Origin: a virus
Length of the DNA: 64,000 nucleotides
Reading direction: 5' to 3' (one strand)
Virus record (IMG/VR): IMGVR_UViG_3300035698_006643
Location: 1 to 64,000 of that record
Part shown: positions 16,227 to 45,200 of the stretch, one piece after another
Position numbering within the stretch: position 1 is the first letter of the stretch
How the letters are laid out: every line of letters begins with the position of its first letter
Position numbers and translations under genes: made by a program
The notes under the pieces: generated by a model
Database searches by the model: none
Told to the model about the DNA's origin: nothing
Seen by the model: only the letters and a program-made list of their open reading frames with translations

Positions 16227-19200
16227 CTACCTACGCCGCATCCTGCTTGCAATCCCAAGGGCAGACCCCCGTTGTGGGGCCATCCCTGTTTGACGGGCCT
16301 TCCGTATCTTCTGAGTGAGGGAATCCACCTTAGTCCTCGGGTGGCCAAAGACCGAAGACTTGGTAGCGTCTGATGCAAACTTCGTGTCCCTCAGTCGTTC
16401 TGTTGACAACCAGATTGACCTCACTAATGAATCTGCCCGGTCGTCGTGCATCCCAACAATTTTCGGGGCGTGAACAACAACGATGTTCCGGCTGGTCTGT
16501 TCTGCTTCCAGGGTACAAATCTCTTCGACCAAATAAGAATCTGAACTCCCTTTCTTGCCCTCAAACTCAGCCAGTTCGATTCTACTATCAAACAGCATCA
16601 TCTTTGTATTCTGGAACATCGACGATGCTAGAGCCGTCAGTATTCGCTGAGCCTCAAACTGGTTCAATCCCCTACGACGCAACGACTGTTCCAGCGGAAT
16701 CCCGTTCCACTGGTCGAGAACCCCTTTTCGGATAATGAAGCGCTTACTAAGTTGGTAGATCCATTCAGCGATATCTTCTAGTTCAAGGCGGTCCTTATCC
16801 AACGCCCAGTCATGTTTGAATAGGTCTCGTACCCCTGGAGGAAGGGGCTGACCAGCGTACACACATTCGTGGTAGTCAACTACAATGCTAGTTCCGTTAC
16901 CTGAAGGCCGTGACAGAGTGATAGCTGACCCATCAGTTACCAGCCCTAGATCCACCCCACAGTCGTAGGAAACCTTTGGCCCCTTAGACCGCTTCAAAGG
17001 CTTCCTACCTTCTACCACGCACTTCTGAACTTCTTCCTTACGTTCAATCCACCCACGGATTCGGTCAGCAAAGTTCGCCCCGAACTCGACCATGAATACT
17101 TCAGGGTCTTCGTGGTACTTCGTCCGAAGGTACTGGGATGGAATCGTAGGATTCATTTCAGCCGAAGGAGCTTGAATGACTAGGATATCCCCGGCACCTT
17201 CCCCACCCTGAAACCCAAGGTAGTACAGTTCAAAGAACTTACCGTCCCGCATCCCAGGAGAAGAAATAGCCAGAACACGACCATCAGTTGTTTCCTTCAG
17301 CTTCTTCGTGGAATCTTCGGGGTCCTTCGGTGTGAAGGATGCTGCTGATGGTGTTACAGCTTCCCAGACTGACTTACTCGACGCCCGCTTGCTGGAATCC
17401 TGGAAGTGTGCAAATTCATCAAGAATGATGACGATGTTACCAGGACCACGAAGCCCCTTAGCCACACAGCTACGGAAACCAACCTTAATGGAAGCTGGCC
17501 CCTTAGTGTCGTCATACCGTCCATAGTCGTCAATGTCCTTGGCCGTCTGAAGGGTTACGACTGACTGTGTGTGCCTAGCTAGATAGTCGGTAAAGTACCC
17601 AACCGACTTGAAATGTGTTTGCACAGACGAAAAGAGGATCCCAGCCTGTTCCTTATCAGTAGCCACCGTGATGACCTGAAAGGGGTTACCCCGAGCCAAA
17701 CCGTAGTACAGGTACGGGTCTGCGATGTGGAGGATGCGGTAGGTCTCATACGACGCCACCGTAGAGGAGAGGAACGTATTGTGGTTGACGACCCCCCCAG
17801 CCACGAATGATGGTTCAGCATCATCTGGCATTGACAAGTCGGCAACTTCAGCTAGTTCAATCTGCCTGTCTGTAACTTCTACCCAGAAGTAATCCTGGTC
17901 AGCCAATTCCCGAAGATGGTCTGTCTCTGGGAACCCCTGAAGCTCTGGTTGGGCTAAGATTCGTTCCAATCTGGAATATGTGAGGTCATTCCGGCTCTGG
18001 TCTTTAACAACTGGGCCAAAAACCCTTCTCACCTTAGATTTCACTTTGTCAGTTGAAATCATCTGACCAGTCTTCTGGTCCTGCTTCCTTGTATCTGGGA
18101 TTCGATTCAAAAGACGACGGCACCAGTCTCGTTGAAAGGGAATGCTCTCGGCGGTTCCACCTTCCTTCGACTTACGGCACGACACTTCCAACTGGCTCTG
18201 CTTTTTCTGAGACCGGAAACCGATCAAATCAAGGAACAACTGCTTACTACGAAGCCCCTGAAGTGTCAGCGTGTAGTAGTTTCGTTCGTACTTTTTATTC
18301 CACTTGGGGCGAATCCCAGACACAATCCCGAGATTCAAGAGTAGAGCCTGGACCTGACGGACTAGAAGTCTTGATGAACTGGTCAGAGTCACTTTCTTCT
18401 GGCCTTCGACACACCCATCAGCTTCAAACAATGACCGTATGAACCAGCAGACAACCTTCTGAGGAGACTGCATCACTACCCAAGGAACCTGCTTCGTTTC
18501 ATTGGTCGCTACCAGACTAAACCCGCACCAATCTAAGAAGTGGCGAACGGGCTTCGACGCTAGGTAAACACAACCGGTGTTTTCACGACGCTTATCTTTC
18601 CTGACACTGTACCGCCTGAATAGCCGGGTGAAAAGTTCTCGGAGGTCTTCCCAGGTTTCGTGGTGGTCTACAGCAACTTCGACACGGTTGTCGTAGTTCC
18701 ATAGCCCGTCACCTACTAGATACCCCAAAAGAGTTGTCCAATCTTCATCCAGCACTGAGGGAACATCAAACAACTTTGCCGACGCCCCCCACTTAGGGGG
18801 ACTGTAAGCTAGGAGGTCAACTTCATCCCCCCAGACCCCAGCACCACGATGGATAGCGACGTAGTCCCCTGGTTCAAGGTCTACTACCTTTTTCCACCCA
18901 GGAACCCCGTCAGATTGCATTGCTACAACCTGGTGCCTATCAGCACTACCTGTCACTTCTAATCCGAGCTTTGTCTGAAGAACGACAGTCTCTTTCAAGC
19001 CGCCGTCATAGTAATAGGCTGGTTCGACTAATCCACTAGGTTGAACCACCTGGAACGGGTCAGTAATGTACTGAACTTCAGCCCCTGTTCCCTGGTCTAA
19101 ATCAGCGACTGCAACCAGACCCTTTGACGTGGGAATCAAGGTATCTGTTCGGACACACTTCCCGCCTCGCCGGCCGCACGGAAGAATCAAGGTACGGCGG

Positions 19201-19502
19201 TCGTGGTCTTGTTCCTTGATATTGCATCGGCCTTCTTCAAACAGGTAAGTCAGGTATTCTTTTTCAGTCAGTCGGTAGATGATGTTTTCATTGAAGATGT
19301 CTGGAACGCACACGTTCTTGTCAGTATCATTCAAAGGTAGGTTATAGAACATCTTCAGGATAAACCGCTGTACTGGGTACAACCGTAACCCCAACCCCCA
19401 GGGCTGTTCTACATACTCAATGATGTTCGGGATATCGAGGTCGCCTGCCCTCACAGTCATCCTGGCATTTCGCCTGACAATGTCTGAAAGGTCTTGTGAC
19501 AT
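16227..19502 (-). CDS. terL: Terminase large subunit, interrupted by an intein in Walker A
   Basis: The DNA packaging motor ATPase and nuclease. The 1091-residue precursor would give a 631-residue enzyme after splicing. Walker A is LPCGRRGGK, then the intein, then TFLSS. Walker B is IVIILDEFAHF, and ISSPG is the coupling motif. The C-terminal RNase H-like nuclease begins VSYDCGVDLGLVTDGSAI, whose Asp residues fit metal binding, and further acidic residues follow (DAWALDKDRLELEDI region, with conserved GVLDQWNG). The start at 19502 (MSQDLSD) overlaps the upstream stop as TAATG; a start at 19544 would lie inside that gene. The family is certain; the packaging mode cannot be told from the sequence. 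Confidence 0.95.
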   Translation of the reverse strand: MSQDLSDIVRRNARMTVRAGDLDIPNIIEYVEQPWGLGLRLYPVQRFILKMFYNLPLNDTDKNVCVPDIFNENIIYRLTEKEYLTYLFEEGRCNIKEQDHDRRTLILPCGRRGGKCVRTDTLIPTSKGLVAVADLDQGTGAEVQYITDPFQVVQPSGLVEPAYYYDGGLKETVVLQTKLGLEVTGSADRHQVVAMQSDGVPGWKKVVDLEPGDYVAIHRGAGVWGDEVDLLAYSPPKWGASAKLFDVPSVLDEDWTTLLGYLVGDGLWNYDNRVEVAVDHHETWEDLRELFTRLFRRYSVRKDKRRENTGCVYLASKPVRHFLDWCGFSLVATNETKQVPWVVMQSPQKVVCWFIRSLFEADGCVEGQKKVTLTSSSRLLVRQVQALLLNLGIVSGIRPKWNKKYERNYYTLTLQGLRSKQLFLDLIGFRSQKKQSQLEVSCRKSKEGGTAESIPFQRDWCRRLLNRIPDTRKQDQKTGQMISTDKVKSKVRRVFGPVVKDQSRNDLTYSRLERILAQPELQGFPETDHLRELADQDYFWVEVTDRQIELAEVADLSMPDDAEPSFVAGGVVNHNTFLSSTVASYETYRILHIADPYLYYGLARGNPFQVITVATDKEQAGILFSSVQTHFKSVGYFTDYLARHTQSVVTLQTAKDIDDYGRYDDTKGPASIKVGFRSCVAKGLRGPGNIVIILDEFAHFQDSSKRASSKSVWEAVTPSAASFTPKDPEDSTKKLKETTDGRVLAISSPGMRDGKFFELYYLGFQGGEGAGDILVIQAPSAEMNPTIPSQYLRTKYHEDPEVFMVEFGANFADRIRGWIERKEEVQKCVVEGRKPLKRSKGPKVSYDCGVDLGLVTDGSAITLSRPSGNGTSIVVDYHECVYAGQPLPPGVRDLFKHDWALDKDRLELEDIAEWIYQLSKRFIIRKGVLDQWNGIPLEQSLRRRGLNQFEAQRILTALASSMFQNTKMMLFDSRIELAEFEGKKGSSDSYLVEEICTLEAEQTSRNIVVVHAPKIVGMHDDRADSLVRSIWLSTERLRDTKFASDATKSSVFGHPRTKVDSLTQKIRKARQTGMAPQRGSALGIASRMRRR
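17778..19157 (-). mobile_element. Intein with LAGLIDADG endonuclease splitting terminase Walker A
   Basis: 460 residues. It begins Cys-Val-Arg-Thr (CVRTDTLIPTSKGLVAVADL), has the block-B-like TGSADRHQVVAM and ends FVAGGVVNHN, with Thr as the first C-extein residue. The endonuclease part has TLLGYLVGDGLW and WFIRSLFEADGCVEG. It sits exactly between Lys and Thr of the Walker A loop (GRRGGK/T), one of the most conserved points in the gene and a common intein site. Splicing must occur before packaging can work. Confidence 0.95.
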
Positions 19503-19987
19503 TAGCTCAGTGCCTTCATCTTGTATTCGGCGTCCGCTTCCCAACCTTCCATAGCTTCAGCGAACCTAGTCATCACATCGCCAATCTGGGGGCTGGATAT
19601 ACTGGACGACACCATTGCCTCTTTGAACTTTTCAAGGAGCATTTCAAAGAGTAGCTGAAAGGCTCGGCCCTTTACGTCAATGACCTTCGACGCCATTTCG
19701 GAACGCCGCCGAAGCCACATTGACCCCAAAGTCTCCAGGGCCTTGATTCGTTTTGAGATGATGTCGATGCTCATTTCCCCATTCAGTTCAAGCTGTTCTT
19801 CCTCGTAACGAAGCTTTGCTTGTTCCATAGAGATTTCACGCATCAACCAGTCCATGAAGTCGTCCGATACTGGACTGTTCATGGCTTCCCGGATGACAGG
19901 GTCCTTCAGAATCTTCCGTTTCTTTTGGTCAAGACGCTTTCTGGGGTCATCCGACCCTGGGAGCGGGATCACTTTACTATTCGACAT
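19502..19987 (-). CDS. Possible terminase small subunit
   Basis: A 161-residue, mainly helical protein directly upstream of and overlapping the terminase large subunit gene (TAATG), the usual place for the DNA-recognition subunit. It has an N-terminal basic segment (DDPRKRLDQKKRKILKDP), a helical core (EEQLELNGEMSIDIISKRIK) that may form the oligomerising helix pair, and a C-terminal helix that could contact the large subunit. I do not see a clear helix-turn-helix, so the assignment rests on position, size and predicted helices. AGGAGG lies seven bases before the ATG. Confidence 0.4.
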   Translation of the reverse strand: MSNSKVIPLPGSDDPRKRLDQKKRKILKDPVIREAMNSPVSDDFMDWLMREISMEQAKLRYEEEQLELNGEMSIDIISKRIKALETLGSMWLRRRSEMASKVIDVKGRAFQLLFEMLLEKFKEAMVSSSISSPQIGDVMTRFAEAMEGWEADAEYKMKALS

Positions 19988-25680: not shown

Positions 25681-26469
25681 TCAAACTGGCTCTACAAACA
25701 GCTTCGGAAGGATGATTTCGGATGTCATCGTATCCAGGTGAACAATCACGCTCACGGTATCTCGAGTAAACCCAGTCACTTCCCCTTCCAGATTTCGATG
25801 GATTCCACCGAGTATGCGTACCGATTGCCCCAGTTTAAACTGAGAAAATAGCTGCTGTAGGTTCCTCCTGAACTGGTCAATCTTTGCCTGAGATAAGTAG
25901 TGAATCTGAGTCCCACCTTTTTTCGGGTGGTCACACATTAGTTCCAGGACAAATGGGCTGGCTTCCAGGTCTTTCGGATGAAACGAACGCTTCCCCATCC
26001 AGAACCTACCCTTGATCGGCCCCGAAGACCTGTTCGCTTCTTTCATCCGTCCAAGAGCCGTGTACACTACTTGCTGCTTCTGCGTATGGGTTTCTCTGGT
26101 GAGACAGTCTGGATTGATTTCCAGAATCATGTCCACTAGGTTCCGGGTAGTGAATACAACCCCAGGATTTCGCTTGAAAATCGTCAGGAGGGCTTGCTTG
26201 ATTTGGCTCCGAGGGTTCTTTACGAAAGTTGCTACAGTCCAGGGTGGGGCGGGGCTAACCTTCGGGATGATATACGAACGGACATCAACAAAGACATACC
26301 CTTCCATCATCCAGGAGATAAGCGTCTGATTATCGTAGGTTGCACTCACGGCAGGAACAAAGACATTGTCAGCACCAAATGACTTCAAACTATCAGAGAT
26401 TTCACGAAGACTAGAAACCCGTTCACCGGCTGGCGACAATTCAAGAATCACCCAAGTTCGGTCTGACAT
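25681..26469 (-). CDS. NusG/RfaH-like transcription elongation factor
   Basis: A 262-residue protein. The N-terminal 90 residues match a NusG NGN domain: WVILELSPAGERVSS (start of strand 1 and helix 1), GADNVFVPAVSATYD, then MMEGYVFVDV, the usual landing strand. The C-terminal 55 residues form a KOW domain: FKLGQSVRILGGIHRNLEGE, then VSVIVHLDTM and PKLFVEPV. Between them is an added winged-helix-like segment (about 105-190, with IKQALLTIFKRN and TRNLVDMILEI). NusG proteins hold RNA polymerase in a processive state, and RfaH or LoaP types act only on chosen operons. The ATG at 26469, after AAGG, is preferred to an upstream ATG inside dnaX. A phage antiterminator is the best guess. Confidence 0.8.
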   Translation of the reverse strand: MSDRTWVILELSPAGERVSSLREISDSLKSFGADNVFVPAVSATYDNQTLISWMMEGYVFVDVRSYIIPKVSPAPPWTVATFVKNPRSQIKQALLTIFKRNPGVVFTTRNLVDMILEINPDCLTRETHTQKQQVVYTALGRMKEANRSSGPIKGRFWMGKRSFHPKDLEASPFVLELMCDHPKKGGTQIHYLSQAKIDQFRRNLQQLFSQFKLGQSVRILGGIHRNLEGEVTGFTRDTVSVIVHLDTMTSEIILPKLFVEPV

Positions 26470-27793
26470 GCACCTTTTCCTCAAGGATACGGTCAAATAC
26501 TGAAGTAAACTCCCCGGTAGACAGTAGTTTTTTATCACAACTACGTGGCGGGTCAATAGGGATTATACCGTCAGGTATTCTCCTTTCAACCTTTCTAGGA
26601 GTTAATGGCTTGCGATTGACAGCCTTAGCTTCCAATGCCGCCATTCGATCGGACCGTGTCACCTGTAAGGATTCTGAAGGGGTTTCCTCTGAGGAAGCCG
26701 ATTCTGTCTTCGGTGTCTGAAGAGACGAAGCCTGGGCTACTGGATTTCCGTGATGAAGGACATGCCCTAGATACAGGAGATGCCCTTCAACAACTTCTTT
26801 AGGGAACCGACCGTATCTATTGGCCACATACGCTGCAATCGTCAACAACCGGGGACCAAGGACTGTGAAGGCATGTTGCGCCGCATCCTTGTCGTGGGAT
26901 GAAACATCTTCACCAAAATCAAACCCTAGCCTGTAGCTCATAATCGCCGCCTGGCCCAGCCGCTTCATTACGTCGTCTGGAGTCGTCTTTTCCAGCATCT
27001 TGCGAAGCAACCCTACAACTTCAACGACTGAATCGTCAGACAAGCAAACCAGGAGTTCGTAAGCAAGGCTGGATACATCTAGGTGGAGGTACTCCCTGAC
27101 TAAGGCTACGGTGATGTCCCCAATCCTGGACACCATTTCAGCTTTCTTGAAGCAGTCCCGGACATGAGACCCAGATTCCTGAACAATCAGCCGCAAAGCT
27201 TCCTCTTCAACGGAGATACCTTCAGCCTCACATATCCGCTGAAGCCGCTTAATGATGTCGTTCTCAAGAACTATCTGTACTGGGAAATCATCGCAACGGG
27301 ACCGGATGGTTGGCTGTATCTTGGAAGGTTCAGTCGTACAGAAGATGCAGACCAGCCGCCGTTCTTCAATAGGCTTTAGGAGTGCATCCTGGCTTTCCTT
27401 CGACATCCGATGGGATTCGTCAAATACCACCAGCTTCGGTCGGTCTGATACATAGTCTAGGGTCGAAATAATCGCCCGCACGTCTTCCAGCGTCCCCCTA
27501 CTGGCAGCGTCCCGTTCTTCGTAGTACGGAGACTTCCCCTCAAGAAACGACAGACAGTAGCTACACTGATTACACGGGCTCCCATCAGGCTGGATGTCCT
27601 TACAGATTGTAGCCCTGGACAGAATTCGAGCAAGGGTGGTCTTACCAGACCCTCTAGGCCCAGAGAAGATGTAGGACTGGTTCATTGCTGAACCGTCCTT
27701 CAGTCGGGTCTGAAGGACACGCTTTGTCACATCCTGTCCCAGAACATCCTCAAAGACAACCGGTCGGTATTTCAGGTCCCAGGACTCATTCAT
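26441..27793 (-). CDS. dnaX: DNA polymerase III clamp-loader gamma/tau subunit (DnaX-like)
   Basis: ATPase that opens the sliding clamp. A 450-residue protein with LKYRPVVFEDVLGQD, Walker A SGPRGSGKTT (about 45-54), a four-Cys zinc motif (Cys-Lys-Asp, then PCNQCSYC), Walker B KLVVFDESHRM, and TIRSRCDDF, the arginine-finger SRC motif. The C-terminal 120 residues are Pro/Ser/Arg-rich and end with a basic tail, much shorter than E. coli tau, so this is closer to gamma. The start at 27793 overlaps the previous stop (ATGAATGA). It overlaps the NusG-like start at its other end. Works with the delta (43031), delta-prime (44080) and clamp (31276) genes. Confidence 0.9.
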   Translation of the reverse strand: MNESWDLKYRPVVFEDVLGQDVTKRVLQTRLKDGSAMNQSYIFSGPRGSGKTTLARILSRATICKDIQPDGSPCNQCSYCLSFLEGKSPYYEERDAASRGTLEDVRAIISTLDYVSDRPKLVVFDESHRMSKESQDALLKPIEERRLVCIFCTTEPSKIQPTIRSRCDDFPVQIVLENDIIKRLQRICEAEGISVEEEALRLIVQESGSHVRDCFKKAEMVSRIGDITVALVREYLHLDVSSLAYELLVCLSDDSVVEVVGLLRKMLEKTTPDDVMKRLGQAAIMSYRLGFDFGEDVSSHDKDAAQHAFTVLGPRLLTIAAYVANRYGRFPKEVVEGHLLYLGHVLHHGNPVAQASSLQTPKTESASSEETPSESLQVTRSDRMAALEAKAVNRKPLTPRKVERRIPDGIIPIDPPRSCDKKLLSTGEFTSVFDRILEEKVHVRPNLGDS

Positions 27794-28298
27794 GCGTTTC
27801 AATCCAGTGGCGAGCATCCAAAAGGTACTTATTGAACTGGTCCGGTTGCAGCCGGATGTCTAGGTACTTCCCATACAAGTCGAAGACCAGTTCCTCAAGC
27901 GACGTCAGAAGATAGAACCGTTCCATCACCTTTTCAAAGAGAGTCTCACTCAGCAGGTCTGGGAGTTTAATCCCACCCATTTCAAATTTTGGGCCGTTGA
28001 AGTCGAGGTCCCAGGTCTTGCCATCATACATGACAGACATCTTGGCCTGTTCAAGCATCTTGCCTGAACGGAGGGCTTCAAACATCTCAGTACTGTCGAA
28101 GGGTGACCCACCACGAAAGGACACCTGAACCTCCGTGTCAAGCATAGACCGGAGACGCATCGTATCGTCGAACCAGACTTCCATTTTCTTGGTCTTCCCT
28201 TCCACAACACCATCGTTGGTCACCGACTGGTAAAGTAGCCAGGTGAGGAATTCAATCCCAAGACCCCGTGTGCGGTCAATTTTTGCTGCGAGTTCCAT
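27786..28298 (-). CDS. RdgC-like protein, C-terminal part encoded as a separate gene
   Basis: A 170-residue protein that completes the upstream RdgC-N gene. It starts with GLGIEFLTWLLYQS, close to the FLTWLW motif of RdgC proteins, followed by strands (KKMEVWFDDTMRL, EVQVSFRGGSP) and a helical C-terminus. In bacteria RdgC is one chain of about 300 residues that forms a ring on DNA and restrains RecA; here N and C portions are separate, in different frames, 11 bases apart. GGGGG precedes the ATG, so it is a true gene start rather than a frameshift. The RdgC C-part match is weaker than that of the N-part. Confidence 0.7.
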   Translation of the reverse strand: MELAAKIDRTRGLGIEFLTWLLYQSVTNDGVVEGKTKKMEVWFDDTMRLRSMLDTEVQVSFRGGSPFDSTEMFEALRSGKMLEQAKMSVMYDGKTWDLDFNGPKFEMGGIKLPDLLSETLFEKVMERFYLLTSLEELVFDLYGKYLDIRLQPDQFNKYLLDARHWIETHE

Positions 28299-30224: not shown

Positions 30225-30681
30225 AGAGCCACCCCCAGAAAGCCACCCACGCCATCACAAAAGGATTCGGACGTTGGAGGTCAGTATCTATCGTGGCTTC
30301 CCCGAGGACCCAAAGGAGGGACCGAACATCCCTGAACTCAGGGTCAGTCCGATAGTTACGGTTGATATGCTGTATCAATTCAGCGTAAAGACTGTCTAAA
30401 TTTTTCTTGAAAATGAATGACCTACAGGATTGAGCCTGTTCCGGGCGGTTGCAATCAACTACGAGTTCCTGAGTGGACAGAAGGTTGCAGACACAGAACG
30501 GGGTCCCGTCTGGGAAGTCAACACTCGTTTCTTGATTGAAAGCACAGTTCGACGGTAGTGGCTTGAGTGCTGATTTTGAATAGCGCTGGTAGTGCCGAAA
30601 GACGACTCTACGCAGCTTCTTCGTCACTTGGGTCTGGTTCTTCACACCGTACCTGCTTGTAGGTCGTTTCCCCTTCCCCAT
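30217..30681 (-). CDS. Hypothetical protein with possible metal-binding cysteines, 154 aa
   Basis: Not recognised. The N-terminus is strongly basic (MGKGKRPTSRYGVKN, KKLRRVVFRHYQR). Five or six Cys residues lie between 45 and 86 (SNCAFNQE, FCVCNLL, VVDCNRP, AQSC), a spacing that may bind zinc or an Fe-S cluster. The C-terminal half is helical. Its start overlaps the end of the Rad50-like gene by 74 bases and no clear ribosome site precedes it, so the true start might be a GTG about 60 bases further in. It overlaps the next gene by eight bases. Primase or recombination partner is a guess. Confidence 0.65.
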   Translation of the reverse strand: MGKGKRPTSRYGVKNQTQVTKKLRRVVFRHYQRYSKSALKPLPSNCAFNQETSVDFPDGTPFCVCNLLSTQELVVDCNRPEQAQSCRSFIFKKNLDSLYAELIQHINRNYRTDPEFRDVRSLLWVLGEATIDTDLQRPNPFVMAWVAFWGWLYG

Positions 30682-31273
30682 TTATGCTGGCGTTATAAGC
30701 CGTATGGGCATGTTCGAGAAATTCAGTAATGTGGGTCACCATCAGGAGATTCAGTCCAGTCTTCGCACAGAACTTCCGGAGGAACTCCCCCATCGCTGTG
30801 CGGTACTTTTCTGACAGAGCTCCCAACGGTTCATCAGCCACAACGAGCGGAACCAACCCAAGGCGAAGCGTAGTGAACAAGCGAAGGATAAGCCCCTGAC
30901 TGACGGCAATACCGCCGCCAAAGGCTTCCATCACATCACCCTGGACTTCCCCATAGGCTTTTTCTTCGATAGTCTCCAGGTCAACATTGACCCGGTTTCT
31001 CTTCACCGAAATCTGAGGCTGTACCGATAGCTTCTTGTCCGTAAAAATGGCCCGCATCCCTTCAGTTAGAAGGGACGCAAGGTCTTCGGCTTTGGACTTC
31101 AGCATCAGGTCCAATAACGTGTGAAGTACCGCCACGACCTTTGTGTACAGGTCTACGGACTCCGTGATTTGAATAATCTGAGCTTCAGTCGCCTTCACAC
31201 GACTTTTAGCACCATCACGGAGCCCCTGAAGACGGCTAGATTCAGCCATCAACTGTTCGATTCGTTCTTGCAT
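30608..31273 (-). CDS. SbcC/Rad50-like ATPase, C-terminal half encoded separately
   Basis: A 221-residue protein that supplies the second half of an SMC-type ATPase. It begins with a coiled coil (QERIEQLMAESSRLQGLRD) and contains the ABC signature region (EAFGGGIAVSQGLILRLF), Walker B with catalytic Glu (VPLVVADEPLGALS) and the H-loop (LNLLMVTHI). It has no Walker A, which is in the gene at 34601. Together they would form the ATPase head that works with SbcD/Mre11 (33627) to process DNA ends, like T4 gp46/gp47. Its ATG lies two bases after the clamp TAG. The split of a normally single chain is discussed as a finding. Confidence 0.85.
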   Translation of the reverse strand: MQERIEQLMAESSRLQGLRDGAKSRVKATEAQIIQITESVDLYTKVVAVLHTLLDLMLKSKAEDLASLLTEGMRAIFTDKKLSVQPQISVKRNRVNVDLETIEEKAYGEVQGDVMEAFGGGIAVSQGLILRLFTTLRLGLVPLVVADEPLGALSEKYRTAMGEFLRKFCAKTGLNLLMVTHITEFLEHAHTAYNASINGEGETTYKQVRCEEPDPSDEEAA

Positions 31274-31275
31274 CG

Positions 31276-32472
31276 CTAGTCCTTCAACGCCGTGAACAAT
31301 GTCAGACGGACTTCTTGTCCACCGGCAATGTCTTCAACGGACCGGAAACGGATGAACTGGCCTGGAGACATCAGGATATCAAATTCATCCGGCATTCCGA
31401 CAAGACCCTGTAAGCATCTCTTCCATAGCACAGGAATGCTTCACGGGCCGGCTTCATCTTCCCGAACAACCGGAACGATTAGTCCAAACGGCTTCCGTCT
31501 GTCTGGCGTCATAGCCTGAAGGCCCAGATTGATTGCACCTGATTCGTCACCCAGTGTCAGGGCGATATAGGAAGAAGAACCCCCCCCGACGCTCTTCGTT
31601 GTATCCATCGCTGACTTCAGTATCATCAAGTTGGAGTGGAGGTCATCCCTCTTGACTCTCAATACCACAGGTTCCTTCAGGTCAGCCGTCGGGTTGATTG
31701 TAGTCGGTGGTGGGAAGGACGCTGACTTCTTGATACCGAACGTACACCCTCCACACATGAAGTGGTACATATCCGGCGCTTCCAGAACTTCGACATCTGT
31801 CCCGTCGATTTCGTCTTCATCGGCAGACTTGAGCTTCGACAAAACAGATACGAGCTTTGTGCAGTCACTCTCTTGAAGCAGGAACTTCTTCTTGTCAACA
31901 ATCCCAGGAGTCTGATACGCCCCGACAATCTTTCCATTCATCCCGATGAAGAACCCGTTCATGCTTTCAACGAAAGCGAAATTGGGGTCTTTCTTGGAGA
32001 CGAACTCTTTCGTGAAGGCCAATCCCATCTCCAGCGTTTTCAACTTGAAGATGTCCATGGGTTCAGCCGTGGACATAGTCCCTTCGTAGCTGAAATGTTC
32101 GTTCGTTTCCCAGAACTGGTACGGGATAGGCTGTCGGTTTCCAAAAGTGACGCTAACATACTTCCCGCCACCTTCTTCCTGGACTTCCATCAGAATGGAA
32201 TCTTCCTTGGCGTATGGAAGGGCCGCTGTCATCCGGGCACATTCCATCGAGAAAACTTCACCACCGCTCACGTCTTCCGATTCCATCGGAATCGTAAGTC
32301 TTGACATGAACCGCCCGTCATATCCTGCAATTTCCAGTTCGGTAGGGCTCAGGCAACGGAACATCAAGCCTTTCCGCCACATCCATTCGTCTCTGGGTTC
32401 AACAACAGCACAGGCGATACCTGCGATTGTCACCGCTCGTTGAAATTCTTCAGTGTTGACTCTAACCTTCAT
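31276..32472 (-). CDS. dnaN: DNA polymerase sliding clamp (DnaN-like) with one in-frame TGA
   Basis: Ring protein that tethers DNA polymerase. The first 343 codons (32472-31444) give a beta-clamp-like chain rich in strands and ending FGLIVPVVREDEAGP. Codon 344 is TGA (31443-31441). The same frame then continues for 54 codons, with LWKRCLQGLVGMPDEFDILM, SPGQFIRFRSVEDIAGG and EVRLTLFTALKD, to TAG at 31278-31276. The pattern of a helix followed by strands, with MSPGQFIRF corresponding to the SPLSPVLI region and a final strand where MPMRL lies, is what a clamp C-terminus should look like. So the gene is either read through, damaged, or carries a sequence error. GGAGG precedes the ATG at 32472. 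It sits among recombination genes. Confidence 0.75.
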
Positions 32473-32737
32473 CGGTTTCCTCCGTAAATTTCTTCAGGCT
32501 TTCCTCTGCAATAGTGAGGTCGGCCTCAAATGATTCAAGGGAGCCCTGGAGTGCTTCCTTCTTTTCCTTCAATACATCCTGAATCGTATCGGGGTCATAC
32601 CCTGCTTCCGTAATCTCAGAACGCAGGCGTTTCTGTTCTGATTCCAGATGGTCTTTACGACCCACCAGTGCCGCTTTCTGGGAAGCCAGGCTGTCCCGCC
32701 GTTTCTTCAAAGATTCAAGTTCCTGTACTGTTGCCAT
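32462..32737 (-). CDS. Small coiled-coil protein, 91 aa
   Basis: Almost wholly a charged helix: LESLKKRRDSLASQKAALVG and ESEQKRLRSEITEAG, then a short turn (YDPDTIQDVL) and a second helix (KKEALQGSLESFEADL). It could fold as a helical hairpin. Lying among the separated Rad50 halves, it could complete or brace the shortened Rad50 coil. That is inference; it has no CxxC hook. It overlaps the clamp start by 11 bases, so translation is coupled. AGGGG precedes its ATG. Confidence 0.8.
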   Translation of the reverse strand: MATVQELESLKKRRDSLASQKAALVGRKDHLESEQKRLRSEITEAGYDPDTIQDVLKEKKEALQGSLESFEADLTIAEESLKKFTEETDEG

Positions 32738-32748
32738 ATCCTACACCC

Positions 32749-33627
32749 CTAAAGTTTCAGGACCCCCTTGGGTCCAAAGTCAATCTTATCATCAGGCTTA
32801 GTTCTTGCGGCCTTCCGCTTTACCTGCATTGCACTATATGGGATACAACTCCCAGCGACCTGGGCGTAGCGACAATAACGACAAGCCGAAGGCGTTGGGG
32901 TCGCATCAAATTCTTCACGCTTCACCGCATTTGTCATCTGAATCAGGCGGTCACGAAGGTCTCTTAGGTCCGCTGCCGTCCAGAAGATTTCGTCCCACAT
33001 CTTGCCTGTGTCCCAAACCCCGGCTTCATTTCGTTCAGCGAAACGATACCACCAGAAAACCAGCTTCTTGGGTACTATCTGTTCGGACAAGAACGTGGCC
33101 AAAGCATAGAACAGCAACTGGTCACTAGAATTGAATCTGCCCTTCTTGCGGCCAGCTTTTCCGTCCACAATCCAGACTTCGTCAGCAGATGCGTAACGAA
33201 AGTCAATCCGCCCCCCGACTTCGTCTTCATTCGTCAGCTTTCCCTTCACAAAGATTTCGACATCGGTCTGAGGAGCTAGAAGCTTGTAGTCCTTTACGGA
33301 CTGCAAGATACCGGGAAGGATGTCCTGTACCCCCTGAATAATCGTTTCAGGTGTGTCATTGAAGAACGGGGCTTCCCAATTCACATAGATGTCCCGAAGA
33401 CACAAGTCGAGAACTTCTGGAACAGCATCCACCATCCTCTGTAAAACCGAAGACCCGTCAAGGTACCATCGTTCCTTGTAGAACAGTTCCATCAACTTCT
33501 GGGTGACTGTCCCAAAGATAGCGTAATGGTGGCTGTCGTCGCCCTTCCCTTCATCCATTATCCACTTTCGGTAGAATCGTGAAGGACACTCTTTGAAGTC
33601 GCTGTAGGAACTGTACGAAACAAACAT
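32749..33627 (-). CDS. Cas4/RecB-like PD-(D/E)XK nuclease with predicted Fe-S cluster
   Basis: A 292-residue nuclease. It begins YSSYSDFKECPSRFYRKWIM, where Cys14 would be the first cluster ligand, and ends with ACRYCRYAQVAGSC, giving Cys-x2-Cys-x8-Cys: the arrangement in Cas4, AddB and RecB-family nucleases. The active site is visible as GGRIDFRY (Asp) and WIVDGKAG (Asp-x-Lys). A helical segment, SSDQLLFYALATFL, matches the conserved Q-x(2)-x-Y helix of RecB nucleases. It probably resects DNA ends or degrades host DNA beside SbcCD and RecA. The start overlaps the SbcD stop (TGATG). There is no helicase domain, so it is a stand-alone nuclease. Confidence 0.88.
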   Translation of the reverse strand: MFVSYSSYSDFKECPSRFYRKWIMDEGKGDDSHHYAIFGTVTQKLMELFYKERWYLDGSSVLQRMVDAVPEVLDLCLRDIYVNWEAPFFNDTPETIIQGVQDILPGILQSVKDYKLLAPQTDVEIFVKGKLTNEDEVGGRIDFRYASADEVWIVDGKAGRKKGRFNSSDQLLFYALATFLSEQIVPKKLVFWWYRFAERNEAGVWDTGKMWDEIFWTAADLRDLRDRLIQMTNAVKREEFDATPTPSACRYCRYAQVAGSCIPYSAMQVKRKAARTKPDDKIDFGPKGVLKL

Positions 33628-34604
33628 CAGGAAGCCTCCTCCGCTTCACCACGAAGGAGTTCAAGAACGACAGACCGGACATCGTCCGCTATGTCTATGT
33701 CCTTGAGCATCCCTTCCAGGTCGTCTTTCGTACTTACAGTCGCTTCGTGTTTGAGGCGGGCCACAAAGGTTTCAATCTGCTTGTCTTCGTATTGCTGTTG
33801 CTGTCGTTCTTCCACCTTGAAGATATTGCTTGCCGGTTCTACTTCAAGAGGGACAACTTCGACCGCTACCCCATCCTTCTTGATATCCAAGACAGCGACT
33901 TTGGGGATTCGGTCCATCGTTTCGTAGCGTAGCGACCCACGACTAACCGCCCCCAGATTTACAAACACCTTCCCATCAATCTCTTCTACGCCCTGGTCCA
34001 TGTGCCAGTGCCCAAAGCACCAGACATCGACCCAGGGGAATTCAGAAATCAGGTCATAGTACTTGAACACTGGGGTACCGTAGAACTCACCACCAGCTTT
34101 GGAGGCAAAGTAGTGAACCACAGCCACCGTCTTATCAACTGGGTAAGCAGGCGGGTAAAGTGCTTCCTTTAGGTCCTCTAGGGTCATTCGCTTCTGGTAT
34201 GGGACGGCCCGCACACTAATCTTACCAGCTTTTTCGTGGATGATGCCGGGGCCAGCCCGCAACAGTGTCACCGCCCCAGATTCAGCCAGTACCTGAAGCG
34301 GCTGCTTATCCAAAGAGTCGAGACTGTCGTGGGTGATGTCGTGGTTCCCAGGAACCACGAAGGTCGGAATCTTTGCTTCCTTGTGGACTCGAATCAGGTC
34401 AACCATCAACGAATGGCTATTCCGACTCGGGCTCTTCAAGTAAAAGAGGTCACCGCCGTCAAGAATCGCATCAGCCCCACGGTCCTGTGCTATGCGATTA
34501 ATCTGTCGGAGCTTTCCCAGTATGGTTGCCTTCCAGTCGTCGGTACGACTTTCTGGAGCCCGGTCTGCAATGTGGACGTCTGTCCTAAAAACGAATCGAC
34601 TCAT
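33627..34604 (-). CDS. sbcD: SbcD/Mre11-like metallophosphatase nuclease
   Basis: A 325-residue nuclease subunit of the SbcCD (Mre11-Rad50) complex, corresponding to T4 gp47. Metal-binding motifs are in order: RTDVHIAD (D-x-H), DAILDGGDLFY (GGD), VPGNHDITHDS (GNHD), AVVHYFA, and CFGHWHMDQG (GHxH). It makes cuts at blocked or hairpin ends and coordinates with the ATPase. The start overlaps the stop of SbcC-N (ATGA), the usual order for this pair. The C-terminal 80 residues form a helical extension that may hold the Rad50 coiled coil. Length is near the usual value. Confidence 0.92.
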   Translation of the reverse strand: MSRFVFRTDVHIADRAPESRTDDWKATILGKLRQINRIAQDRGADAILDGGDLFYLKSPSRNSHSLMVDLIRVHKEAKIPTFVVPGNHDITHDSLDSLDKQPLQVLAESGAVTLLRAGPGIIHEKAGKISVRAVPYQKRMTLEDLKEALYPPAYPVDKTVAVVHYFASKAGGEFYGTPVFKYYDLISEFPWVDVWCFGHWHMDQGVEEIDGKVFVNLGAVSRGSLRYETMDRIPKVAVLDIKKDGVAVEVVPLEVEPASNIFKVEERQQQQYEDKQIETFVARLKHEATVSTKDDLEGMLKDIDIADDVRSVVLELLRGEAEEAS

Positions 34605-35773
34605 TTGACCTCCCGTTCACATAAGGGACATACAGTCCCGAGTGCTTCGGTCCAGTCTTCCTCAGTCTGATGAATCTCATCGTTCAATTCAGTTAGGTCT
34701 TTCATTGTCGTTGAAAGTGCGTACTGAAGCGACTGACCCGCTGACAGCCAGAGTTCCATCCGTTGTATGCCCTTCACCATCGAAGAGACATCTTTGTCCT
34801 GGGGGACTTCAACATCTTCGACGCCTATGAGGTTCTGAAGAAGCCCGCCGATAGATTTCAGGCGCTGACTAAATGCTTCAGCATCTACAATTTCCTGGTG
34901 AAGTTCCCGGAAGTCCACCGATTCAGGGATACTGACTCCAGACACACCAGTAAGTGAATCAATCGTTTCCTGACCAGCTACCATCAACATAGCAAAACGC
35001 CCGACGGTCTTGACATCTTCCAGAAGCCCTTCGACCGAATCAGCACTGGGGATTGCCACAAGATTGATACCATCAAGAGTCGCCACATCTACCATAAGGG
35101 TCTGAAAGGTCTTCTGCTGGACCTGAAGGGCCTGGTACGCCCTCCCTTCAACCTGGATAGACTTCCACCTACCCTTGACTAATTCAACGCCCTGTACCGC
35201 ATCGTCAAGACCTTCATAGACCAGAAGTTCAGCCTGGTCGTCTTCCAGGTCAGAAGTGCGGACTTTAAGCTGGCTCTTGAAGTCTCGGAGTCGTTTCTCA
35301 CCCATCCGAATAGCAGGGTTCACCCGTTCAATCCCAGTCACCGAACAGATTGCTTCAGCGATGAAGGACCCGGACTTGTCCAATAGAAACGGTCGGCTAC
35401 TGTCGTGCTGGTCGGCTATCTGAGGGACAACCCTATCGGACCCCGACACAAGTTCCCCGAACCCCAGACCTTCCAGAAAGTCTGGACGGCCCCGATTCAC
35501 AGAACTCAGAAGGTCACCGTTTACAGTGTACTGGTTGACTCCCTTTCCCTTTTCCCAAATGACATCGACCTTGTCTCCGTCATTCAATTCCACACGGACA
35601 ACCCCCTTACCCTTATGGATGAAGTGGTTGCCCCCCTGGTTGGTCATCAATCCCTTTACGGACCGAACCAATGCCGACTTGCCGACATTGGTTTCACCGG
35701 CGACAACTGTAAACCCTTTCACCTGGATTTCAGTGTCCTTGATGGACTGGTAGTTTTGAATCCGGATTTTCAT
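34601..35773 (-). CDS. sbcC: SbcC/Rad50-like ATPase, N-terminal half ending at a zinc hook
   Basis: A 390-residue protein. Walker A is VVAGETNVGKSALV (around residues 23-36), within an N-terminal lobe typical of Rad50/SbcC (MKIRIQNYQSIKDTEI, then strands). A long helical, coiled-coil region follows. The chain ends TVCPLCEREVK; CPLC (382-385) is a Rad50 zinc-hook CxxC, usually found in the middle of the chain. The second half of the ATPase, with signature and Walker B, is encoded 3.3 kb downstream at 30608. The coil is short, so the arm is much smaller than bacterial SbcC. It starts by ATGA overlap with recA. Confidence 0.88.
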   Translation of the reverse strand: MKIRIQNYQSIKDTEIQVKGFTVVAGETNVGKSALVRSVKGLMTNQGGNHFIHKGKGVVRVELNDGDKVDVIWEKGKGVNQYTVNGDLLSSVNRGRPDFLEGLGFGELVSGSDRVVPQIADQHDSSRPFLLDKSGSFIAEAICSVTGIERVNPAIRMGEKRLRDFKSQLKVRTSDLEDDQAELLVYEGLDDAVQGVELVKGRWKSIQVEGRAYQALQVQQKTFQTLMVDVATLDGINLVAIPSADSVEGLLEDVKTVGRFAMLMVAGQETIDSLTGVSGVSIPESVDFRELHQEIVDAEAFSQRLKSIGGLLQNLIGVEDVEVPQDKDVSSMVKGIQRMELWLSAGQSLQYALSTTMKDLTELNDEIHQTEEDWTEALGTVCPLCEREVK

Positions 35774-43030: not shown

Positions 43031-44083
43031 CTAACCCCCTTCGTAGTCATATACAACTTCGAGGCGAGTTGTGCCCTTTTTTCTTCCAACGAGTTCCAGG
43101 ACAATGGCTTCGACTAAGAGGCGACCCTGTGACCCGGACTTCACTTTATAGTCAGCTTCACATAGACGGGCCAGGGCTTGTACCAGTACCATCGGCTTCA
43201 TTTTCCTCAGTTGCCTGAACATAATCTTCTCTACGACAAACTGAGGGAGGCTGACCATTTCAGCGATTTCTTCAAATGGCACATTCCGACTGGCCATTGT
43301 CAGAACCTTGAACCAGATAAGGACATTCCGCTGTAGAGCCCCTAGAATCAAAAGAGTAGGGTCACCCACTTCCAATGAAGTAGACTCGTAGATTGACTGG
43401 AGGGTCTTCATTGCAGAAGTAGCCCGCCGTTGAAGTATCATATCACACAGGTCAAAGGCGGTTAGATTTCGACGGTGGGTCATCACCTTCCAGAATTCAT
43501 CCGATGAAATCTGACGCCCATTGGCAAAAGTGAGGAGCTTCCGACACTCTGATTCAAGCCCAAAGAGGTCACTCCCGACATGTTCGTGGATTGCAAGACA
43601 CAATTCGTGCGGAAGATTCAGTCCCCTGTCCATCAGATATTCACTAATCCAGTCGGCATACTGGTTCACCTTCCGGTTAGCTACAAGCTTCTTTGCCTCA
43701 AAATGAACCCCAGAAGTCGCAGCAGCGGTCAAAAAAGCTCCACCCGCCCTTGACCCCTGACTCACTACAAAGACTGCCGTGGTGGTGTCACAGGGGTCGT
43801 CCAGATAGGCTTTTAGGTGTTTGTTCCGGTCTTTGACCTTCTCGACATACCAAACGAAAATGGCTACACGGGAAAATCCGGTCATAAAGAAGGGGCGGTG
43901 CTCCAGTTCAAGTAGGACTTCTCCACCCCTAGTCTTGTCCGTACACCACACGTCTGTTATCTGGTGGGTCCGTGACAGTCTTTCCCGAAGGTACTCCAGC
44001 GACTTGGCGTAGAAGTAGGGTTCATCACCAGACACAAGAATCGAATCAGGGGGCTTCAGCGGATTGATAGTAGCGATTGTCAC
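43031..44083 (-). CDS. holA: DNA polymerase III delta-like clamp-loader subunit (HolA-like)
   Basis: A 350-residue protein with the three-domain layout of HolA: a P-loop-like but non-ATPase domain (ILVSGDEPYFYAKSLEYLRE), the segment FSRVAIFVWYVEKVKD, TTTAVFVVSQGS, a central part with ADWISEYLMDRGLNLP, SDLFGLESECRKLLTFA (the delta family N-x-L-x(2)-E pattern) and a collar domain with TAFDLCDMILQR and LGALQRNVLIWFKVL. It opens the clamp ring. It starts with GTG overlapping the delta-prime TGA (GTGA). With DnaX, delta-prime and the clamp, the phage has a complete bacterial-type loader. Confidence 0.85.
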   Translation of the reverse strand: MTIATINPLKPPDSILVSGDEPYFYAKSLEYLRERLSRTHQITDVWCTDKTRGGEVLLELEHRPFFMTGFSRVAIFVWYVEKVKDRNKHLKAYLDDPCDTTTAVFVVSQGSRAGGAFLTAAATSGVHFEAKKLVANRKVNQYADWISEYLMDRGLNLPHELCLAIHEHVGSDLFGLESECRKLLTFANGRQISSDEFWKVMTHRRNLTAFDLCDMILQRRATSAMKTLQSIYESTSLEVGDPTLLILGALQRNVLIWFKVLTMASRNVPFEEIAEMVSLPQFVVEKIMFRQLRKMKPMVLVQALARLCEADYKVKSGSQGRLLVEAIVLELVGRKKGTTRLEVVYDYEGG

Positions 44084-44997
44084 TTTGACCCCCCCATACG
44101 AACCCGAACCCTGGACAGCACAATCAGGGTTTCCAACTGGAATCTCATATTGATTGGCCGACCCGAAATTTGAAAGAGGTTGCAGAACCCTTCGAGAACA
44201 TCGGCTGCCTTATCTCCGAACTCTGTACCTAGTTCCCGGTACAGGTCTATTCCATCCACACCTGACACAGCATCAAACCCGCCGGCACGAAACCGAATCA
44301 CGTCATTCAAAATGCTGACCATTTCCTGGAGGATTGGTAGCAAGGATTCGTCGGGGTACGTAGCTAGAACCTGACCAACATTTTCAAGTGGCCCTTTCAC
44401 TATCGCCTGAACCATAGCCATCGACCTTTTCCTGACTGACCCCAAAGACTTATTCATGTGGGCTAGGGCTCTACCGATTGAACCTTCTGCGTAGGCTAGA
44501 GCCGTCTTGACGTTACCGGCCTGTACCCCCCGACTGATTAGGAATGGAGTCAGGACTTCATCTGATAGACGGTAGAAGGGAATCGGGGCACACCTGGAAC
44601 GAACTGTGCCTGGAACATTATGAAGCTGATTGGTCACTAGAAAGAACCGGCACTGGGCTGGCCCCTCTTCAAGCGACTTCAATAGTGCATCTGCCCCAGC
44701 CGTTGTCATCCGGTCCACCCCTTCAATGACAAACAGCCGATAGGGAGCCCTGGGGATTAACGACATCAACCCCAGGAGCTCCCGCACCTGAGCAATCTTG
44801 AGGGAATTGCCGTCGGGCTTGAACCAGTGTACGTCTTCGTGGGGACCTTTCCCGTACAGTTCAAGGACGACTTTCTTCACGACAGTCCGCTTTCCGACCC
44901 CTTCATCCCCGTACAGAAGAAAGGAGACCGTATCAGACTGTTGAAAGCCGTCCTTTAGCCGCTGGTAGGCTACTTCGTGTCCAACTACCTTGGGCAT
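44080..44997 (-). CDS. holB: DNA polymerase III delta-prime-like clamp-loader subunit (HolB-like)
   Basis: A 305-residue AAA+ protein. MPKVVGHEVAYQRLKDGFQQ is the usual opening. Its Walker A region reads YGDEGVGKRTVVKK, still ATP-binding-like although bacterial delta-prime does not hydrolyse ATP. Then VFVIEGVDRMTTAGADALLK (the sensor and Walker B region without the usual catalytic Glu), FFLVTNQLHNV and TVRSRCAPIPF (SRC) follow. The C-terminal part is helical. The start at 44997 overlaps the zinc-ribbon gene stop as TAATG; the frame upstream to 45123 lies in that gene. It is coupled to delta. Confidence 0.88.
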   Translation of the reverse strand: MPKVVGHEVAYQRLKDGFQQSDTVSFLLYGDEGVGKRTVVKKVVLELYGKGPHEDVHWFKPDGNSLKIAQVRELLGLMSLIPRAPYRLFVIEGVDRMTTAGADALLKSLEEGPAQCRFFLVTNQLHNVPGTVRSRCAPIPFYRLSDEVLTPFLISRGVQAGNVKTALAYAEGSIGRALAHMNKSLGSVRKRSMAMVQAIVKGPLENVGQVLATYPDESLLPILQEMVSILNDVIRFRAGGFDAVSGVDGIDLYRELGTEFGDKAADVLEGFCNLFQISGRPINMRFQLETLIVLSRVRVRMGGSK

Positions 44998-45200
44998 TAG
45001 TGATTGAAACCCCCGCCGACCTGGACGGAATAGGTGTACCCACACTCGGCACACTTGAACCGGGTGCATCCACCCACCTGTGAAGTCGTACATCGGATAC
45101 TGGTACAACCAGGCCGACGGCACGCAGCGTGAACATACTTCTCATCCGGTTTAGGGTCACGACCTTCTCTTGGGATTGACGGAACTCGGTTGTCTGACAT
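44997..45200 (-). CDS. Small zinc-ribbon protein, 67 aa
   Basis: A 67-residue protein with a basic, Pro-rich start (PSIPREGRDPKPDEKYVHAA) and six cysteines in a tight region (CRRPGCTSIRCTTSQ and FKCAECGY), fitting a zinc ribbon or double-knuckle. Similar small zinc proteins in phages act as transcription or replication adaptors. GAGGAGG precedes the ATG and the stop overlaps delta-prime. A TTGTATAGT element lies about 36 bases upstream. The family is unclear. Confidence 0.82.
   Translation of the reverse strand: MSDNRVPSIPREGRDPKPDEKYVHAACRRPGCTSIRCTTSQVGGCTRFKCAECGYTYSVQVGGGFNH

Follow-up and report, generated by a model that had tools for sequence, protein, structure and literature searches.

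The window analyzed here (64,000 nucleotides, taken from a linear IMG/VR virus record of 72.7 kb, with its main genes on the minus strand) contains a gene that is the phage's own bacterial-type beta sliding clamp, divergent but recognizable as such, and its reading frame is interrupted by one in-frame TGA. Judged by comparison of the sequences, the clamp was ancestrally full length, and the TGA that breaks it occurs in this contig but in none of the relatives fetched. The likely explanation is a nonsense mutation of recent date or else an error of consensus or assembly, with no conserved control element at the site; we consider these two origins about equally likely. The beta clamp is the ring that keeps the replicative polymerase on DNA. 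The gene, its parts and the neighboring and clamp loader genes are as follows.

31276-32472, minus strand: beta sliding clamp (DnaN-type) frame of 398 codons with one internal TGA, recognized by a family profile against DnaN in PDB, a fold model and Foldseek.
31441-31443, minus strand: the in-frame TGA, codon 344, at an alignment position occupied by Phe in 13 of the 15 relatives aligned; the 46 related records show no internal stop.
31276-31440, minus strand: 54 codons and a TAG, very probably encoding the C-terminal half of clamp domain III (codon usage, fold model and aligned relatives; no gain in a relatives-only HMM).
32462-32737, minus strand: 91-aa coiled-coil protein adjoining the clamp, a conserved neighbor.
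32749-33627, minus strand: PD-(D/E)XK exonuclease, a conserved neighbor.
30608-31273, minus strand: C-terminal half of an SbcC/Rad50-like ATPase, directly downstream of the clamp.
26441-27817, minus strand: DnaX-like clamp loader subunit.
43031-44083, minus strand: delta clamp loader subunit.
44080-45123, minus strand: delta-prime clamp loader subunit.

When the region was re-read on the minus strand, 32472-31276 formed a single 398-codon frame whose sole break is the TGA, at exactly the positions given in the original prediction. The frame opens with the ATG at 32472 and runs for 343 codons to the TGA (31443-31441), beyond which 54 sense codons lead to a TAG at 31278-31276, and the gene carries no other disruption. 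With standard termination the product stops at residue 343, so that the complete C-terminal half of domain III is absent from the 343-aa protein. The window's only single-base run of at least 8, a G8 tract at 31580-31587 (minus strand), also lies within the clamp gene. A frameshift at this tract was considered and rejected, the frame being the same on either side of the TGA and the other two frames being closed.

The gene had been named a DnaN sliding clamp from the letters alone, and this proved correct, although searches with the single sequence missed it. Alone, the clamp sequence had no relevant match in Pfam, PHROGs, NCBIfam or the PDB and fell below every curated cut-off, peptide-pattern scans of viral and genome collections with it returned nothing, and single-sequence AlphaFold2 (AF2) gave a useless model (pLDDT 34.7). 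The profile of a 16-member family, however, matched bacterial DnaN structures in PDB with an E value of 6.9e-14; PF00712 was detected in 5 of the 16 members and not in the window clamp alone. AF2 run on the family alignment, with the window clamp in the readthrough frame, gave a model with a pLDDT of 81.5 and a pTM of 0.83, and Foldseek matched this model to DnaN crystal structures along its entire length (best match 8dt6, E 7.7e-23, TM 0.76; TM 0.70-0.77 over 400+ alignment columns in the readthrough frame) as well as to phage DnaN models. The ancestral product would have been full length, about 398 aa in three domains. Compared with bacterial DnaN (TIGR00663; PF00712/PF02767/PF02768), the window clamp shares the three-domain fold over its full length, the family profile match and the presence of clamp loader genes in the contig, and differs in being only 10-16% identical to the matched structures, below the curated cut-offs on its own and interrupted by a stop. 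DnaN-like clamps of other tailed phages (BFVD A0A6J5SHT1) have the same fold.

Besides the loader subunits the contig encodes a primase-like Toprim protein. The DnaX, delta and delta-prime proteins of the phage itself presumably load the clamp; no second clamp was found in the contig. The order exonuclease, coiled coil of about 90 aa, clamp and SbcC-type C-terminal half is the same in LR745208.1, L094 and L102, and the clamp homologue of LR745208.1 (L120) has the same neighbors as the window clamp. This conserved neighborhood places the clamp among recombination genes. The SbcC/Rad50-like protein is itself encoded on the minus strand in two separate halves, between which the exonuclease, coiled-coil and clamp genes are located; the half at 34601-35773 carries the Walker-A motif and ends in a CPLC zinc-hook motif, and the half at 30608-31273, which follows the clamp directly in several relatives too, carries the signature, Walker-B and H-loop motifs.

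The portal protein gave access to the relatives, its alignment leading to 80 related IMG/VR loci. Searching the whole records of 50 of these loci with the clamp yielded four homologues, an alignment of the four found homologues in 32 of the 50 records (E below 1e-5), and a profile of 16 rows brought in a further 14, LR745208.1 among them, to give 46 in total. A search for contigs nearly identical to the window, whatever their codon at the TGA site, returned none, though such records may have been withheld from the collection searched. None of the clamp homologues in these 46 related phage records contained an internal stop, several of the records looking like repeat assemblies of one phage and one being a contig-end fragment; apart from that fragment, the open frames were 373-493 aa long. 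By portal and terminase the contig is a relative of LR745208.1 (485 kb), an uncultured huge phage, and a more remote one of Tunturi_5; the portal adds a link to Bacillus phage G. The window clamp is 17-20% identical to those of its relatives and the portal 44-52%; in other pairs with portal identity near 51-55%, the clamps were 19-26% identical. Relatives in which the clamp ends at the TGA site with unrelated sequence beyond, the case that would have told against an interrupted gene, were looked for and not found. Gp9 of Tunturi_5 (342 aa, annotated as a processivity factor), a candidate for a naturally short relative, could not be aligned to the clamp family and was set aside. The terminase gene (16227-19544, minus strand) has a LAGLIDADG domain and thus probably an intein, and the DnaX gene of LR745208.1 contains an intein-like insert as well (L003:20817-22703).

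The 54 codons past the TGA had been said to fit a DnaN C-terminus, and they very probably are the clamp's real C-terminus, as indicated by the fold model, the length, the codon usage and the gene spacing. In the AF2 model, residues 344-398 form a strand, a helix and three strands that are part of domain III, with good confidence (pLDDT about 77-87 with the alignment, lower only at the final residues), and the TGA stands where the strand beginning the second half of this domain has its first residue. Fully matched relatives end 49-57 residues past the TGA column, an interval into which the next stop would fall by chance in about 3% of cases by simple arithmetic. An open stretch of 54 codons by itself is weak evidence, being expected by chance at about 7% (3/64 stops per codon). 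Codon usage of the tail is coding-like in the clamp frame only; its score exceeds that of 98% of off-frame stretches of 54 codons and that of 96% of the open ones, and reaches only the 18th percentile of true in-frame stretches. A mere 2 nt separate the TAG from the next gene's ATG, which fits a tightly packed operon and so argues for a real tail, whereas termination at the TGA would leave a 167-nt gap; if the TGA is real, this gap might uncouple translation of the downstream ATPase half.

Conservation among relatives, which the original prediction had put forward as a check, held in part: the length of the tail was matched, but the TGA was absent from the 46 records and the 54-residue tail had no significant score in an HMM built from the relatives only (window left out), where 56 of 500 shuffles scored as well. 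Every relative tested gained 12-49 bits from its tail in this test, and the window tail added no score. Since the window clamp is the most divergent member (77 bits, compared with 196-386 bits for the other members), the test has less power here, but its outcome still counts as negative.

Three origins had been offered for the TGA, namely programmed readthrough, a recent mutation and a sequencing error; the latter two stand, and readthrough is disfavored. A leaky or programmed UGA, at which ribosomes pause on Gly-Pro-UGA-A and some continue to give truncated and full-length clamp in a set ratio, is unlikely, whether little full-length clamp suffices or the ratio regulates replication. The tail has kept its coding character and can still fold in the model, with no second lesion, as readthrough would have it. 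Bacterial proteins end in Gly-Pro less often than expected (odds ratio 0.43), and slow release at Pro or Gly has been reported (PMC7246954), so this context might terminate poorly. On the other hand, TGAA closes 6 further genes here, and two others have Pro as their last residue, which makes the context an ordinary one. The stop is missing from the 46 relatives, RNA structure around the TGA did not exceed chance (z -0.33), no Rfam element matched there, and the 72.7-kb contig yielded no UGA-suppressor tRNA (anticodon UCA). A lineage-specific functional stop is nevertheless possible, because the nearest clamps are only 17-20% identical. The stronger proposal, that this huge phage doses functional clamp by inefficient termination at Gly-Pro-UGA-A, making mostly truncated protein as a lineage-specific replication switch, is quite improbable; were the TGA both genuine and leaky, termination efficiency would be setting the dose of a core replication protein, which is rare.

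A truncation might be tolerated, with a stable and useful 343-aa product or use of the host clamp while the tail decays; hosts carry their own DnaN. The window clamp being the most divergent member also agrees with this, but we give the idea little credence. Neither the codon usage nor the predicted fold of the tail shows decay, and the divergence of the clamp (17-20% identity) roughly matches the deep position of the contig as seen from the portal (44-52%). Clamps close head to tail through their C-terminal region (PMC11139829), and the truncated product lacks half of domain III; without its last helix and the surrounding strands it probably cannot form a normal working ring. A split clamp, in which translation restarts just past the TGA and a small fragment completes domain III, is very improbable: an in-frame GTG at tail codon 3 and an ATG at tail codon 15 could serve as starts, but no clear ribosome-binding site was seen by eye and none of the relatives has a split clamp.

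That TGA generally encodes an amino acid in the phage or its host, for which one in-frame TGA in a conserved gene might speak, is barely credible. It is the terminator of 22 further genes, which in 7 cases overlap the start that follows; recognized genes such as those for ribonucleotide reductase and RecA span their whole domains before reaching their final TGA; and no UCA-anticodon tRNA turned up in the contig. Both the prior judgment that such reassignment was improbable and the use of TGA as a normal stop at 25681 and 28928 were borne out. Stop-codon recoding is known in phages; PMC9523058 and PMC10607447 describe TAG read as Gln (code 15), and in the latter TAG lies within 41 ORFs of one genome. 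An in-frame stop inside a phage gene is common to these cases and the clamp, but here a single gene carries one in-frame TGA, TGA is a regular terminator and no UGA-suppressor tRNA was found.

We therefore favor a private TGA of recent or technical origin in an ancestrally full-length clamp, the homologues found in related phages being uninterrupted. Elsewhere in the contig the recognized genes appear undamaged, which speaks against an assembly that is error-prone overall. On this explanation the TGA itself most likely teaches little, and what is gained is a phage-encoded DnaN clamp family in a huge-phage clade whose members, as single sequences, are often missed by standard profile libraries.

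A few further features of the contig were recorded. A CobT-like VWA protein adjoins an AAA ATPase, and a class II (B12-dependent) ribonucleotide reductase is encoded on the same contig (47185-50667, 57725-60268, minus strand). The tRNAs found were those for Leu, Ser and Thr only. The tRNA-Leu lies beside a phage-encoded tmRNA at contig positions 63687-64058 (L002:1688-2059, minus strand; Rfam RF00023, 144.9 bits), for which ARAGORN gives the tag ANTPVRMAA, and tRNA-Ser and tRNA-Thr lie further on.
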